Shown: one piece after another, positions 1,860-9,956 of the stretch
How positions within the stretch are numbered: the first letter of the stretch is position 1
Layout of the letters: each line of letters starts with the position of its first letter
Source of the DNA: a virus
Reading direction: 5' to 3' (one strand)
Length of the DNA stretch: 28,515 nt
Virus record (IMG/VR): IMGVR_UViG_3300033064_001671
Location: 1 to 28,515 of that record
Made by a program: the position numbers and the translations under genes
The notes under the pieces: model-generated
The model's database searches: none
Seen by the model: only the letters and a program-made list of their open reading frames with translations
Told to the model about the DNA's origin: nothing

Positions 1860-2663
1860 ATGGGAATCAACGCATACGGAATTCATCCTTACGGCTATCG
1901 CCCCCGCACATGGGTGTTCAAGAAAGCCGCCCGTGAGGAACGCGGCGGTCGATACTTCGGTATCGAGCTTGAGATCGACAAGGGCACGGACGCAGAACTG
2001 CCCAACACTCTCGAACAGGGCAGCAGCGACTTCTACTTTACCCACGACGGCTCGCTCGACGCGCCCGAAGGGTACAGCGCCGAGTTGACGACCCAGCCCT
2101 GCTCGCTCCGTTATCACAAGGAGAAGTTCGGGTGGGACGCGGTGTTGCTGGCCCTCCGCAACGGCGGCTACAAGGGTCACAAGACCGAGACCTACAACAA
2201 GGGCGAAGGCACGTCCGGCATCCACATCACGACGGGCCGCAGATTGCTCGACGACGATGGCTGGGGCAAGGTCGCCCTTCTCATCTACCGAGCACGCAGC
2301 CGTGTCGAGCAGTTCTCACGCCGGAAGAGTGGCCGCTACCGTTGCTACAAAACCGTGACCGAAAGCGCCAAGCGATTCCCCGCGGCCTACCTCGTGAACA
2401 ATTCGGGCCACGGCGATGCGATCAACTTCAAGGCGCAGGCGGTCGAGTTCCGGGTGTTCCGGAGCACGCTCAACCACGCAACGCTGCTGGCAAGCATCGA
2501 GTTCGTCCACGCGCTCATCGGGTGGGCCGACACGGTGACGGTGGGTGTGGCCGCGACGCTGCGCGCCGACGCTCTGTGGAAGACGTTCACCGATTTCGTC
2601 CTCGCTCAGGACGAATACGATTACCTGCCCAAGTATCTCAAGCACTTGGGTCTGACCAACTAA
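1860..2663 (+). CDS. Phage amidoligase (COOH-NH2 ligase, Amidoligase_2-like)
   Basis: The 267-residue protein carries the ordered motifs of the amidoligase family, which has a glutamine-synthetase/ATP-grasp-like active site that joins carboxyl and amino groups with ATP. Visible motifs are FGIELEID (33-40), HDGSL (62-66), ELTTQPCSLRYH (75-86), GIHITT (120-125) and EFRVFRSTLN (196-205); the acidic and His residues in them are typical metal/ATP ligands. The start at 1860 is chosen for its CAGGAGGAAGTACG ribosome site. The next gene is a class II glutamine amidotransferase, the pairing described for phage amidoligases by comparative genomics. The substrate is unknown; peptide tagging or cell-wall modification are possibilities. 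Confidence 0.85.
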   Translation: MGINAYGIHPYGYRPRTWVFKKAAREERGGRYFGIELEIDKGTDAELPNTLEQGSSDFYFTHDGSLDAPEGYSAELTTQPCSLRYHKEKFGWDAVLLALRNGGYKGHKTETYNKGEGTSGIHITTGRRLLDDDGWGKVALLIYRARSRVEQFSRRKSGRYRCYKTVTESAKRFPAAYLVNNSGHGDAINFKAQAVEFRVFRSTLNHATLLASIEFVHALIGWADTVTVGVAATLRADALWKTFTDFVLAQDEYDYLPKYLKHLGLTN

Positions 2664-2681
2664 CGCAGAAAGGAGATGACT

Positions 2682-3455
2682 ATGTGCGTGATAGCAGTCA
2701 AGAAGAGGGGTGTCGCGCTGCCGAACGGCGACACTTTGCGTGCATGCTTCGACGCAAATCCTGACGGCACGGGCTACATGGTCGCGCGCGGCGGTCAGGT
2801 CCACATTCGGAAGGGGTTCATGACGCTCGACGACCTGCTCGCCGATCTCAAGACGTTCAACGTCAGCAAGCGGGACGCGCTCGTGCTCCACTTCCGAATC
2901 GCAACGCACGGCGGCATCAGCAAGGCGACAACGCACCCGTTCCCCGTCGCCGCGTCCTACAAGACGATGCGTCTGCTGAATCAGTCCGTCGATCTCGCCA
3001 TCGCCCACAACGGGGTCTTGGATTTGGATTCTGGCAGCGACAAGGCCAGTGATTCAATGGCTCTCGCCAAGGCGCTGCACAACAACCCGTCGATGCTGAA
3101 CGGCGACGGCAAACTGCTCGAACTCGCCATCAGTGGCAGCCGAGTGGTCAGTCTCGACGGCAGCGGCACGTTGCGCCTGTTCGGCCGCGGCTGGTCGAAG
3201 GAGAAGTGCGTCTCGTACAGCAACAGCCACTGGGTTCGCTGGCTGCCGAAGAAGACGGTGGCGACCCCAAAGAAGTACAGGACCGTGACGCCTATCCGAA
3301 TCGCGGTGCAAAAGCTCAACACGCACGTTCGCAAGAACGTGGAGAAACGAGCGGAGGCGATTCGTGAGAAGTGGGACCGGGAAGGGAAACCTGACGGTGC
3401 TCAGTTGGATGCGGACACGCTCGAATGGTTCCGCAGAAACGAGTACTGGCAGTAG
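2682..3455 (+). CDS. Class II glutamine amidotransferase (Ntn hydrolase)
   Basis: Two ATGs lie close together. The first abuts AAAGGAG with no spacing, whereas the second, at 2682, has six bases of spacing and places Cys at residue 2, the N-terminal nucleophile required in this family. Supporting motifs are MCVIAVKK, NPDGTGYM (26-33), LHFRIATHG (69-77), HPFP (85-88) and AIAHNGVL (106-113). Such domains release ammonia from glutamine, usually for a partner synthetase. No synthetase domain is fused, but the amidoligase lies 18 bases upstream. The C-terminal third is basic and helical, without a recognised domain. Confidence 0.87.
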   Translation: MCVIAVKKRGVALPNGDTLRACFDANPDGTGYMVARGGQVHIRKGFMTLDDLLADLKTFNVSKRDALVLHFRIATHGGISKATTHPFPVAASYKTMRLLNQSVDLAIAHNGVLDLDSGSDKASDSMALAKALHNNPSMLNGDGKLLELAISGSRVVSLDGSGTLRLFGRGWSKEKCVSYSNSHWVRWLPKKTVATPKKYRTVTPIRIAVQKLNTHVRKNVEKRAEAIREKWDREGKPDGAQLDADTLEWFRRNEYWQ

Positions 3456-3462
3456 CAATCAC

Positions 3463-3489
3463 GGGTGGCCGTCGATGAGGCGGCCGCCC
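3463..3489 (+). other. Intercistronic hairpin
   Basis: GGGTGGCCG (3463-3471) pairs over nine positions, with one G-U pair, with CGGCCGCCC (3481-3489). It starts just after the amidotransferase stop. The following bases are TAACTCGG, so a classical terminator is unlikely. It may separate or stabilise mRNA segments. Confidence 0.5.
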
Positions 3490-3507
3490 TAACTCGGAGG
3501 AAGTGCA

Positions 3508-3963
3508 ATGCCTTATACGCCGAACTACCCGGCAGACGGGGCGACGTGCATCGACGACAATCTCAAGTACAGGAGCGCGACGACCGATGCCGTCGATGTG
3601 TTCAAGCGGTCGCACCCGTACCGCGGCACGCTGGTCGAGCGCAAGCGGAAGTTCCGCTCGCTGCACCGCAAACTCAACGCCGTCTACGGCAGACGCACCA
3701 AGCTGAATACACGTCTGGTCGATGGCGAGGGACACAGCGGCTCAAGCAACTACTCACCGCACGACGACAGAATCACGCTGAGTGGCAAGCTGTCCGTCGT
3801 GACCTACCTGCACGAGTACGCGCACGCGCTCGGGCGCGACGAACGCGGCGCCTGCCGCTGGTCACTGAACCTGTTCAAGCGCGCATTCCCGCGCTCGTTC
3901 GCAAGAGTGCACTTCGACGGTCACTGCCTGATCGCCCAGCAAGCGGCGACGGCAGCCAGTTAG
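3508..3963 (+). CDS. Zincin-like metallopeptidase
   Basis: The start follows CGGAGGAAGTGCA. The 151-residue protein contains HEYAHALGRDE (102-112), an HExxHxxGxxE arrangement: two His ligands, the catalytic Glu, and Glu112 as the likely third ligand. This points to a zinc-dependent peptidase fold. The N-terminal 60 residues are basic and Arg/Lys-rich. There is no signal peptide, so it should act in the cytoplasm or be carried elsewhere. It belongs to the same operon as the amidoligase and amidotransferase and could cleave a peptide or linkage made by them, but no substrate is visible. Confidence 0.75.
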   Translation: MPYTPNYPADGATCIDDNLKYRSATTDAVDVFKRSHPYRGTLVERKRKFRSLHRKLNAVYGRRTKLNTRLVDGEGHSGSSNYSPHDDRITLSGKLSVVTYLHEYAHALGRDERGACRWSLNLFKRAFPRSFARVHFDGHCLIAQQAATAAS

Positions 3964-3974
3964 GAGGAAGTAAG

Positions 3975-4190
3975 ATGAAGTTCAAGAGCAAGATCGATGT
4001 CGCCAGAGCGCACTGTGCGAACTGGCGCAGCAGCGGAAAGGACTGCCTGTTCGACAAGCCCTGCGAACCGGCCAAGTGCGACTACTTCAAGGGCGTAGTC
4101 ACACGCTGCGCCGAGATCGCGGCGACTGAGACCGGTCGCAAGAGCTACAAGCACAAATACCATCAGAACAAAAAGGAGGAAGACGAATGA
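3975..4190 (+). CDS. Small Cys-rich protein (71 aa)
   Basis: The ATG at 3975 follows TAGGAGGAAGTAAG, whose TAG is the stop of the zincin gene. Five Cys residues occur (CANW, CLFDKPCEPAKC, and one in VVTRC), suggesting a metal-binding or disulfide-stabilised knuckle. The C-terminus is strongly charged (HKYHQNKKEEDE). The stop overlaps the ATG of the next gene (ATGA), indicating translational coupling. No family is recognised. Confidence 0.7.
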   Translation: MKFKSKIDVARAHCANWRSSGKDCLFDKPCEPAKCDYFKGVVTRCAEIAATETGRKSYKHKYHQNKKEEDE

Positions 4191-4363: not shown

Positions 4364-4546
4364 GTGAGACAGGACAGGCTGCAACGGTACTGTATGATCT
4401 GTGGGCAACTCATCGGGGTCATCACCGACTCGATGTGGCGGCGCATGTATCACTGTTGCGAGGACAAAGGCTGTCTGGTGCTCTACGAGGCCAGACTGGG
4501 ACTTGGAAAGGAGACTGGAAATGGCTGCAAACCTAGACAGACGTGA
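4364..4546 (+). CDS. Small zinc-finger-like protein, GTG start (60 aa)
   Basis: GTG at 4364 is preceded by AAAGGAGGCGCCC. A CMIC pair (residues 10-13), a CC pair at about 31-32 and a further Cys at about 37 suggest a zinc-binding fold around an aromatic-rich core. The 3' end overlaps the DUF932 gene by 26 bases in another frame, so the last residues are read over that gene's start. Family unknown. Confidence 0.6.
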   Translation: MRQDRLQRYCMICGQLIGVITDSMWRRMYHCCEDKGCLVLYEARLGLGKETGNGCKPRQT

Positions 4547-5534
4547 GAACGGCGAGGCCGCAGTTTTTGTAGTAGGCGAGCCCGCGTGGCACGGCGAGGG
4601 AATGGTGTTCGATCACCCGCCAACGCTCGTCGAGGCAATCGAGACAAGCGGACTCGACTTCGAAGTAGAGAAGGAGCCGCTCGTCGTCCACCGCGTTGAC
4701 AACGCGCGCGACATCGACGAGAGATTTGAGGTTCCCAACAAGTTCCTGACCGTGAGAACGGACAGGACGGGCGCGGACTCGGTGCTCGGCGTCGTGGGCA
4801 AGACGTACCATGTGGTCAGCAACAAGAACGCATGGGACTTCTTCGATCACGCGGTCGAGGCGGGCGACGTGGTGCTCGAATCGGCGGGAGCGCTCGACGG
4901 CGGGCGTACCTCGTGGATTCTCGCCAAGCTGCCCGAGGTCGTCAAGATCGGGCGGGACATCAGCGAGCCGTATGTGCTGCTGTCCAACTCGTTCGACGGC
5001 TCCCGTCCGGTCATCGCCGGGTTCAATGCCGTTCGCGTGGTCTGCCAGAACACGCACAACATGGCGTTCGCCTCGATGGCGGCCGCCGGCAACCAGATTC
5101 GCATTCGCCACTGCGCGTCTGCGCACGAGAAGCTGCGCGAGGCGAAGCGCGTCCTGCTGCACGCCAAGGCATACTACGAAGCGTACGCAGAGGCGGGCAC
5201 CGCAATGCTGGAGACACGCATCACCGGCCAGCAACTGCACGGCTACTTCGAGACACTGTACCCGGACCCCGCTCCGAACGTGAAGACGAACCGTGTCAAT
5301 CAGCGTGCGGCGAACGTCCGAGACACGCTCGAAGACCTACACAGCACCGGGCCGGGTGCCGAGCGGATTCGCGGAACAGCGTGGGGCGCGTTCAACGCCG
5401 TCAGCCGTTTCGCCGATCACGGCATGGCTCTGCGCGACTCGACCAGCAACACCAAGAACATCTGGTTCGGTGCTGGCAGCCGTCTCAAGCAACGCGCGTT
5501 CGACAACGCGCTCGCTCTCGTCAAAGTCGCCTAG
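4521..5534 (+). CDS. DUF932 / phage-plasmid-like protein (TIGR03299-type)
   Basis: The 337-residue protein matches DUF932. PAWHGEG near residue 21 opens the domain, followed by LGVVGKTYHVVSNKNAWDFF, a glycine-rich AGALDGGR segment, SFDGSRPVIAGF, the hallmark VRVVCQNTHNMA and IRHCASAHEKL. Start 4521 has GGAAAGGAGACTGGAA upstream; the longer frame reads through the previous gene. DUF932 proteins are common in phages and plasmids. Their activity is unknown, though they are often near DNA-metabolism or anti-defence genes. The stop codon lies within a perfect 7-pair hairpin that opens the next intergenic region. Confidence 0.87.
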   Translation: MAANLDRRENGEAAVFVVGEPAWHGEGMVFDHPPTLVEAIETSGLDFEVEKEPLVVHRVDNARDIDERFEVPNKFLTVRTDRTGADSVLGVVGKTYHVVSNKNAWDFFDHAVEAGDVVLESAGALDGGRTSWILAKLPEVVKIGRDISEPYVLLSNSFDGSRPVIAGFNAVRVVCQNTHNMAFASMAAAGNQIRIRHCASAHEKLREAKRVLLHAKAYYEAYAEAGTAMLETRITGQQLHGYFETLYPDPAPNVKTNRVNQRAANVRDTLEDLHSTGPGAERIRGTAWGAFNAVSRFADHGMALRDSTSNTKNIWFGAGSRLKQRAFDNALALVKVA

Positions 5535-8083: not shown

Positions 8084-8346
8084 TTGGCTTGTCCTCTCAG
8101 TGATTTGGTGTCTTCGTAGGCCGTCGTACCGGTCACCTGCTTGTAATCAAGTTTGTTCCGCTTACAGTGACGAGACACATCGCTCAGGGTTATGCCAGTA
8201 GTATACCAGCACGTCTCCACCACAGGAATCTTGACCCAGCGTTTCGCGCGCTCGTCGAACCACTCGCCCTTTGAAACAAATTCTGGGACCTCTCGGTATC
8301 GGCAAACTCTTTCGCTGTCGTCCAGAGCATACTTGATTTTGCTCAT
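8080..8346 (-). CDS. Small hypothetical protein between MuF and XkdF genes (88 aa)
   Basis: ATG overlaps the MuF stop by one base (TAATG) and is preceded by AGAGGAGCAAGATA; its own stop overlaps the next start. The protein has a charged N-terminus, WFDERAKRWVKIPVVETCWY, then TLSDVSRHCKRNKLDYKQV, which resembles a helix-turn-helix-like segment and could bind nucleic acid or a partner. Because it lies immediately after a probable toxin-domain gene, an immunity or assembly-partner role is possible, but this rests on position alone. Confidence 0.7.
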   Translation of the reverse strand: MSKIKYALDDSERVCRYREVPEFVSKGEWFDERAKRWVKIPVVETCWYTTGITLSDVSRHCKRNKLDYKQVTGTTAYEDTKSLRGQAK

Positions 8347-9956
8347 TATCTTGCTCCTCTGTAAAACGGAACGTAGCCCTCAATGGATTTATTCATGGCA
8401 CCTACCGGCATCTCCGGCTTCGACCGATACCGCGTGTAGATTTCGTGAGCCTTCGCCTTCGCGGCCATGTCGTGATCGTGGACCTGAATCTCTGCCCGGA
8501 TGATACCGCCGCCGGGCGTTGCATACTGCGCGTCGATGTGCAGACCAACATACCCAGACTTGTTGAACGGGTTCGCGTACTTGTCGTCTATCATCAACAC
8601 GCGGCCGCCGGAAGCCTCGATTCGTGATCTTATCGATGCCGTCGCCGCCGGAATATCGCCCACCTTCTCGACAACAACCGTGCCACGAACAGCATCGGTT
8701 ATCCCGTCAACAGGGTGCCCTCTGACATTGATTTTTTCCCTGAGAGACGCCTTCGTTTTGGTTATGTATTTGTTGCCGGGCCCGAAGTACGCCTTTCCCT
8801 TAGAATCGGAGGCCGCGCCAACCACGTTCGCTCTCAGCTTGGGAGCCGCGCCAACCGCATCTTTGTAAAGCCCGTCCGCAGTTGTCGCCGTGTTCTTCAC
8901 AGTGCTTGTGTCCACCAGACGTACCGATTGATCGCCGACTTTCGTGCGATAATGCTCCTTGAACTGGTCAACCTCGGCTCTTAGCTCTTTATTTCTCTCA
9001 AGCTCACTGTCAGGCAGTCCCTCTTCCGTACCCTGATCGCGGTTCAACCAATTGCAATGACAATTTGTGTGAACGGCAATAACATTGTCCGCCGACGCTA
9101 TCGGGAACTGCCACCCGTCCATATCGGCGCAGACCGGGCACGCTCCGCTACTGGCCATGAACTCAACCATTTTCACATTGGCTTTCTTCCAGCCGATCAG
9201 CGTGCCCTCACTCAAACTACTGATGCTCTCAGTTCTGGCAATGGCGATGCTGCGTTGTCTCAGCTTCATGTCACGATAGCGGGCAACGCGAGCATTCAGA
9301 ACCCGACCACGAAGCCCCTGCCCTGCCAACTGATCTCTATACGAGTTCACATACCCAACCTGTCTTGTGGTCAGGGCAAACCCGTCGAGACGCTTGATCT
9401 GCCGGGCTATCTCGCCTACGCCACGTCCCTCGCGCACGCCCGAGGTGATCGCGGCACGTATGTTCGTGCGCATCACCCTCGTAATCTCACGCACGAGTCT
9501 GGCGCTATGCTGACTGGCCCATCGGTTAGCCTCTGGGTTGGTCATCGTGAACGAGCCTTTGAACCGCGTGTACTTCATCGAGCCATTGGCCGCCCGTACA
9601 GCATACTCAAGCATCGTCGGGCGAATGTACTGGACGCCACGCGCGTCGAGGCAGCCCCAATCGACCAGACGCGCAACCATAGCGGCAGGCGTGCTCGCTT
9701 TGTGCAGATTGATTCCCTTTGCAATGGGCTTCAGTCCCATCTGCATCTGGGTCCGAACGCCGTACACGACTGCTCTGTGACACTCGGCAAACCACTTGTC
9801 GATGTTCGGCTTCAACTGAATCGCGCTACTCAATCCCAGCCGCTGCAACTCTAGGTGCAGCTTCCGGCCCTGACGACGGCGGGAGTCCGACGGAGCCGGT
9901 GTCCTCAGCGTCCCCGACGACTCAATGTTTGCCAATGTTCCGGGCTGCGGTGTCAT
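8346..9956 (-). CDS. MuF-type minor head protein fused to a RelA/SpoT-like nucleotidyltransferase domain
   Basis: The 536-residue protein has two parts. Residues about 140-305 are the phage Mu F head-morphogenesis domain: IARTESISSLSEG (239-251), then CPVC (273-276) and HTNCHCNW (296-303). Residues about 395-515 align with the alarmone synthetase domain of RelA/SpoT: TKASLREKI, ITDAVRGTVVVE (419-430; D421, R424), DDKYANPFNKSGYVGLH (457-473; Y469, H473), RAEIQVHD (487-494; E489) and AHEIYTRYR (503-511). The catalytic Asp and Glu are kept. RelA/SpoT enzymes make (p)ppGpp, and toxic relatives modify adenosine or tRNA. Because MuF proteins are in the virion, the domain may be delivered into the host. 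Polymorphic MuF toxins are known; this activity is inferred. Confidence 0.85.
   Translation of the reverse strand: MTPQPGTLANIESSGTLRTPAPSDSRRRQGRKLHLELQRLGLSSAIQLKPNIDKWFAECHRAVVYGVRTQMQMGLKPIAKGINLHKASTPAAMVARLVDWGCLDARGVQYIRPTMLEYAVRAANGSMKYTRFKGSFTMTNPEANRWASQHSARLVREITRVMRTNIRAAITSGVREGRGVGEIARQIKRLDGFALTTRQVGYVNSYRDQLAGQGLRGRVLNARVARYRDMKLRQRSIAIARTESISSLSEGTLIGWKKANVKMVEFMASSGACPVCADMDGWQFPIASADNVIAVHTNCHCNWLNRDQGTEEGLPDSELERNKELRAEVDQFKEHYRTKVGDQSVRLVDTSTVKNTATTADGLYKDAVGAAPKLRANVVGAASDSKGKAYFGPGNKYITKTKASLREKINVRGHPVDGITDAVRGTVVVEKVGDIPAATASIRSRIEASGGRVLMIDDKYANPFNKSGYVGLHIDAQYATPGGGIIRAEIQVHDHDMAAKAKAHEIYTRYRSKPEMPVGAMNKSIEGYVPFYRGAR

Follow-up and report, generated by a model that had tools for sequence, protein, structure and literature searches.

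A compact zincin metallopeptidase as an accessory partner of phage-type amidoligases, largely in planctomycete elements

The window, i.e., the whole stretch of DNA that was analysed, spans an entire virus record of IMG/VR (28,515 bases). Its minus strand encodes a portal, a Mu-F-like head protein, an XkdF-like protease, a terminase and recombination proteins, and its plus strand carries a run of small genes and enzyme genes. The following features were assigned in the run at 1860-3963 and directly after it:

1860..2663, plus strand: amidoligase, a carboxylate-amine ligase of the glutamine-synthetase fold, 267 aa (PHROG match, invariant residues, AF2 model)
2682..3455, plus strand: class II (Ntn) glutamine amidotransferase with a Met-Cys start, 257 aa (alignment, Shine-Dalgarno sequence)
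3508..3963, plus strand: compact zincin metallopeptidase of an undescribed family, 151 aa (AF2 model, PDB fold matches)
3975..4190, plus strand: small Cys-containing ORF with its own Shine-Dalgarno sequence, next in the gene run, 71 aa (sequence)

The amidoligase, amidotransferase and zincin genes lie on the same strand and are separated by gaps of only 18 and 52 bases. Each gene stands behind a strong Shine-Dalgarno sequence, which is found in aggaggaagtacg before ATG 1860 for the amidoligase, in aaaggagatgact before ATG 2682 for the amidotransferase and in ggaggaagtgca before ATG 3508 for the zincin. The small ORF at 3975..4190 had no counterpart in the other zincin clusters among the neighbours listed. 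Two further genes of the window were recorded. The product of 4521-5534 (plus strand) is a DUF932 protein (PHROG 1221, E 9e-49), which was also found as a neighbour of the zincin cluster at L172. Residues 400-506 of the Mu-F-like head protein (8346-9956, minus strand) matched RelA_SpoT (PF04607) with an E value of 8e-5, under the curated cut-off, and this C-terminal part is possibly a nucleotide-synthetase domain carried in the head.

The amidoligase matched PHROG 2443 ('amidoligase enzyme') with an E value of 1e-6, and tblastn connected it to Marvin gp105 (5e-10) and to further annotated phage amidoligases. The Pfam model PF12224 (Amidoligase_2-like) gave no direct match to the window protein and did score the amidoligases of equivalent clusters in the examples tested. 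The 13 residues that were invariant in an alignment of the window protein with divergent phage relatives (about nine) were all present, as were the ten residues invariant across about 40 relatives; the catalytic residues of the family (GxExE, GxH and ExR) are kept. In the window protein, Thr124 occupies the position at which more than 90% of the relatives have His, the second one of an HxH motif. The AlphaFold (AF2) model (pLDDT 85) had a glutamine-synthetase/glutamate-cysteine-ligase fold, and its top 50 structural matches all belonged to the GS superfamily. The Z values were 11.7 for YbdK and 11.4 for plant glutamate-cysteine ligase (221-225 residues) and about 10 for Dop and PafA, and the first match in Foldseek was PafA (E 1.6e-5). 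These enzymes have the carboxylate-amine ligase fold in common with the window amidoligase, whereas they are only 10-14% identical to it and are accompanied by other genes.

The amidotransferase begins at ATG 2682 with MCVIA..., and the Met-Cys start was common to all 8 of the 8 aligned phage relatives. A start at ATG 2676 was considered and rejected, because the Shine-Dalgarno spacing is proper for 2682 and the Met-Cys start, which is needed mechanistically, occurs in all aligned relatives. Cys2, HFRIATHG, HNG and Asp124 were invariant or kept in the window protein and eight phage homologues; hence, the HxRxATxG, HNG and Asp motifs of class II glutamine amidotransferases are present. The Pfam model GATase_4 reached an E value of 0.011 only.

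The zincin contains the sequence HEYAHALGRDE, in which HEYAH corresponds to residues 102-106 and Glu112 is the candidate third ligand. The AF2 model had a pLDDT of 90, and its best PDB matches were nearly all zincins (minigluzincins, BepA, CapP, IrrE and Wss1), with Z values of only 4.7-5.5. No match to the protein was found among the Pfam, PHROG, NCBIfam and PADLOC models, and no credible relative was found among the PDB sequences. The compact zincin fold, the HExxH motif and a Glu that opens the next helix are as in the minigluzincins (selecase, jannalysin) and in IrrE/CapP; unlike in these proteins, the candidate third-ligand Glu lies merely six residues past the second His, and the resemblance is confined to the fold, at the Z values given above. 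For the IrrE/ImmA family (M78), no Pfam family was matched at E values up to 10. The family represented by the window protein has the motif HExxHxxGxxE and, behind it, A/T-x-x-W-S-x-N-L-F. Every compared intact copy except L083 retained HExxH and the Glu, a conservation that is partly built in because the scan patterns include parts of the active site. The exception (L083, 8346-8831) is a zincin homologue without HExxH that was found independently of the zincin, via its amidotransferase. At L188 (4806-5480), the zincin gene is divided between two reading frames, owing either to a frameshift or to an error in sequencing. Tandem zincin gene pairs were observed in the low-GC phages L176 (3034-4032) and L177 (4410-5408), which carry an amidoligase elsewhere in the record. 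The earlier note had described three adjacent genes for an amide-bond-forming enzyme, a supplier of glutamine-derived ammonia and a zincin metallopeptidase, and the evidence above bears out their positions and all three assignments. The loss of catalytic residues in homologues, which it had named as a point against its reading, did not occur.

The first two genes were also said to form a known phage pair, and this holds. According to PMC10580990, the amidoligase-amidotransferase pair in phages has been described since 2009 (Iyer et al. 2009) and is also carried by LUZ24-like and phiEco32 phages. An amidoligase directly before an amidotransferase was found in Marvin, in MEP401/402, in two spring podophages and in faecal phages. 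In the IMG/VR samples, this order occurred at 77 of the 80 loci sampled by the amidotransferase and at 64 of the 79 sampled by the amidoligase. The pairs of Marvin (gp105-gp106), the Methylophilales phages MEP401/402, the LUZ24-like phages and phiEco32 agree with the window in the two enzyme families, their order, their adjacency and the catalytic residues, but they lack the zincin. The open literature that was searched names no substrate for the pair. Two further phages resemble the window in part. The Poriferisphaera phage ZRK32 carries an amidotransferase, an amidoligase, a glutathione synthase and a gamma-glutamyl cyclotransferase (PMC10945688). In this planctomycete phage, the amidoligase and amidotransferase lie side by side as in the window, and the cyclotransferase in the same genome is likewise present in several zincin clusters, but no zincin was detected. 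The Geobacillus phage GR1 carries an amidoligase and a cyclotransferase together with a zincin homologue that is only distantly related (27% identity); the zincin is located 11 kb from the cyclotransferase-amidoligase pair, and no class II amidotransferase was found in GR1. In a spring podophage (L010, 4001-5218), an amidotransferase domain is fused to a gamma-glutamyl-cyclotransferase-like domain, which fits a link between both enzymes.

The distribution of the zincin was evaluated from its own loci. Single-sequence scans of IMG/VR yielded no relatives because the proteins are divergent, and alignments of diverse homologues were needed. The 32 zincin loci comprised 18 from IMG/VR and 12 from genomes (zincin-only scans), together with L083 and GR1; these counts derive from degenerate-pattern scans that contain parts of the zincin motif, most of the genomes are MAGs that differ in completeness, and L176 and L177 are near-identical. 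All 12 genome loci came from Planctomycetota, and the scan of plasmids found no zincin. At 24 of the 32 loci, the zincin formed an operon-like cluster with an amidoligase and/or its partner, on the same strand and adjacent or one to two genes off. An amidotransferase was present in 14 of these 24 clusters (L171-L174, L179-L181, L183, L184, L186-L188, L191 and L193; the L174 contig begins inside the gene). Seven clusters contained a gamma-glutamyl cyclotransferase, and no amidotransferase was recognised in them (L182, L185, L190, L194, L197, L199 and L200). In the remaining three (L192, L196 and L198), the amidoligase stood alone, with no recognised enzyme next to it that would release ammonia or an amine. 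In the cluster examples tested, the cyclotransferases matched PF06094 and PF13772, the amidoligases PF12224 and the amidotransferases PF13522. Both an amidotransferase and a cyclotransferase-like gene lie nearby at L187; thus, the two enzymes are not strictly exclusive. The gene orders observed were amidoligase-amidotransferase-zincin, amidoligase-zincin-amidotransferase, amidotransferase-amidoligase-zincin and cyclotransferase-amidoligase-zincin. Eight zincin loci were unclustered (L083, L175-L178, GR1, L195 and L189). At L083, about 2 kb separate the homologue from an amidoligase-amidotransferase pair, and PF12224 was found elsewhere in the record of the phages L175-L178 and GR1 and of the genome L195, with the adjacent cyclotransferase in GR1. 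Only L189, where the zincin lies at the contig end, had neither an amidoligase nor a partner. Hence, an amidoligase or its partner was present in the same record or genome at 31 of the 32 loci.

This association was compared with the background in Planctomycetota. PF12224 was detected in 10 of 11 zincin-bearing genomes and in 7 of the 391 genomes without the zincin (Fisher p 8e-15); in the comparison set of 392 evenly drawn Planctomycetota genomes, the zincin occurred in 1 of 392 and PF12224 in 8 of 392 drawn likewise. The co-occurrence is not circular, because no ligase sequence was used in the zincin bait. The view of the zincin as a mere neighbour was rejected on the 31 of 32 loci and on the Fisher test, and the three genes are not clustered by chance. 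The folds, the motifs, the clustering and the dependence of the zincin on the amidoligase were all obtained by computation. The co-occurrence check that the earlier note had proposed was thereby run and passed. The three-gene system suggested there stands in one direction only: the presence of the zincin implies an amidoligase, but in the IMG/VR samples no zincin lay near 79 of the 80 amidotransferase loci or any of the 79 amidoligase loci (1/80 and 0/79 with it). Moreover, the set recurs, but its membership is not fixed, with the gamma-glutamyl cyclotransferase in place of the amidotransferase in about one-third of the clusters. The zincin is therefore an accessory partner of the amidoligase, largely in planctomycete elements, and dispensable for the core reaction, because most amidoligase pairs are without it.

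The zincin of the window was 42-62% identical to most of the others and 35-62% identical overall (L083 apart), whereas the window amidoligase and amidotransferase were just 15-28% identical to those of the zincin clusters. In BLAST, the window partners matched the best zincin-free pairs with E values of 1e-26 (amidoligase) and 1e-40 (amidotransferase), and nearly all zincin-linked partners gave E values above 0.009; the exceptions were L083 and, for the amidotransferase, L183. These distances favour a different subfamily for the window pair than for the zincin-linked partners, and they do not date the linkage. A quick amidoligase tree placed the window among pairs without the zincin. In the AU test, one clade was rejected for the amidoligase (p 4e-8) with the unlinked rows L008, L034 and L044 in the set, but not when these were left out and only the window was in question (p 0.83); for the amidotransferase, one clade was not rejected either (p 0.74). 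An independent joining of the window pair to the zincin was thus tried via the trees and not established, as the rejection depended on sampling. The trees would be compatible either with repeated joining or with an old linkage and faster-changing partners. The zincin linkage has outlasted deep divergence of the partners, several gene orders and a switch of the amine-releasing enzyme. Apart from DUF932 at L172, the window had no neighbour in common with the other zincin loci among the neighbours listed. A zinc-ribbon protein of 68-78 aa (CPxC...CxxC) is encoded on the minus strand just downstream at L171, L172, L180, L188, L191 and L193; this gene is conserved beside amidotransferase-type clusters, and ASCH-domain or terminase small-subunit genes occur near some. 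Judged from the zincin relatives only, the host of the window probably belongs to Planctomycetota.

The reading favoured here, at moderate confidence, is that the three genes form one module that amidates a carboxylate of a peptide or protein with glutamine nitrogen and that the zincin cleaves the same polypeptide. Members of these enzyme families are known to release ammonia from glutamine (the amidotransferase) and to form an acyl phosphate with ATP and then an amide (the amidoligase). By analogy with their families, we infer that the class II amidotransferase of the module would free ammonia from glutamine, and the amidoligase would convert the carboxylate to an acyl phosphate with ATP and then to an amide with that ammonia or another amine. 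From the linkage alone, we infer that the zincin shares this substrate; it may cut the polypeptide beforehand to expose the carboxylate or afterwards to release the product. In clusters without the amidotransferase, the gamma-glutamyl cyclotransferase would likewise free an amine from a gamma-glutamyl compound. The alternation of the amidotransferase with the cyclotransferase suggests that amide formation is the constant step and amine supply the variable one. The peptidase depends on the ligase; therefore, a polypeptide substrate is likely. Since the trio recurs in other phages and in planctomycete genomes, the peptidase very probably belongs to a system that modifies proteins or peptides. 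An intracellular target is probable, because no signal peptide was evident by eye. Thr124 in place of the usual His of the amidoligase and the three clusters without a recognised amine-releasing partner are points against the module. A substrate gene or conserved small peptide gene was not found in the neighbourhoods of the zincin loci among the neighbours listed, and a precursor-peptide (RiPP) cluster was dropped for want of a conserved small gene among these neighbours.

The polypeptide could belong to the cell wall, where the module would amidate or alter a peptidoglycan-precursor peptide and the zincin would trim the stem peptide, thus blocking superinfection or resisting lysis enzymes. 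This is unlikely, since neither a signal peptide nor a wall-binding domain is evident, the amidoligase-amidotransferase pair is found in phages of very different hosts, and the folds of MurT/GatD differ from those of the phage pair. Nevertheless, other authors have proposed a cell-wall role for the phiEco32 pair (cited in PMC10580990), and MurT/GatD are an established case of peptidoglycan amidation by a ligase and a glutamine amidotransferase (PMC3267633).

Small-molecule chemistry, in which a gamma-glutamyl metabolite would be made or recycled or nitrogen metabolism aided, with a small peptide as the substrate of the zincin, also appears rather improbable. The cyclotransferases that replace the amidotransferase in about one-third of the clusters have gamma-glutamyl compounds as substrates, and ZRK32, a planctomycete phage with the pair, reportedly helps its host to use nitrogen (PMC10945688); however, ZRK32 itself has no detectable zincin, and a dedicated, ligase-dependent metallopeptidase points to polypeptide substrates. 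There is little likelihood that the zincin only travels with the pair and works independently of it, as a protease of the IrrE/ImmA kind that serves counter-defence or cleaves a regulator. Its fold resembles IrrE and CapP and it lies apart from the amidoligase in the L175-L178 phages, but it had no PADLOC match, and an amidoligase or partner accompanied it in 31 of 32 zincin-bearing records, the amidoligase being otherwise rare. Attachment of a small protein or amino acid via an isopeptide bond by the ligase and its removal by the zincin is very improbable: Foldseek placed the Pup ligase PafA first for the amidoligase and Dop was close, but no Pup-like gene was recognised in the clusters among the neighbours listed, and the amidotransferase suggests ammonia rather than a protein as the amine donor. 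Among these neighbours, no small ORF was common to the window and the other clusters. A known anti-phage defence system was dropped, as PADLOC matched none of the three components at E 0.1. The counter-defence and host-surface roles that the earlier note had raised are neither backed nor contradicted by these results.

The amidoligase-amidotransferase pair is already known. The zincin family, its coupling to the pair and the alternation of an adjacent amidotransferase or cyclotransferase were absent from the open literature searched, a scope outside which Iyer et al. 2009 falls. It is tentatively proposed that an undescribed zincin family is an obligate partner of phage-type amidoligases, with the amidotransferase and cyclotransferase interchangeable as amine-releasing enzymes, and that planctomycete phages and mobile elements possibly carry in this set a novel type of polypeptide-modifying module that both cleaves and amidates one target. 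As the peptidase depends on the ligase, the substrate of the pair is likely a polypeptide, which a zincin without catalytic activity would be expected to trap. The biology of Planctomycetota phages is little known, and the analysis adds a metallopeptidase family that had not been described, as well as a module that recurs in association with the phages and mobile elements of Planctomycetota.
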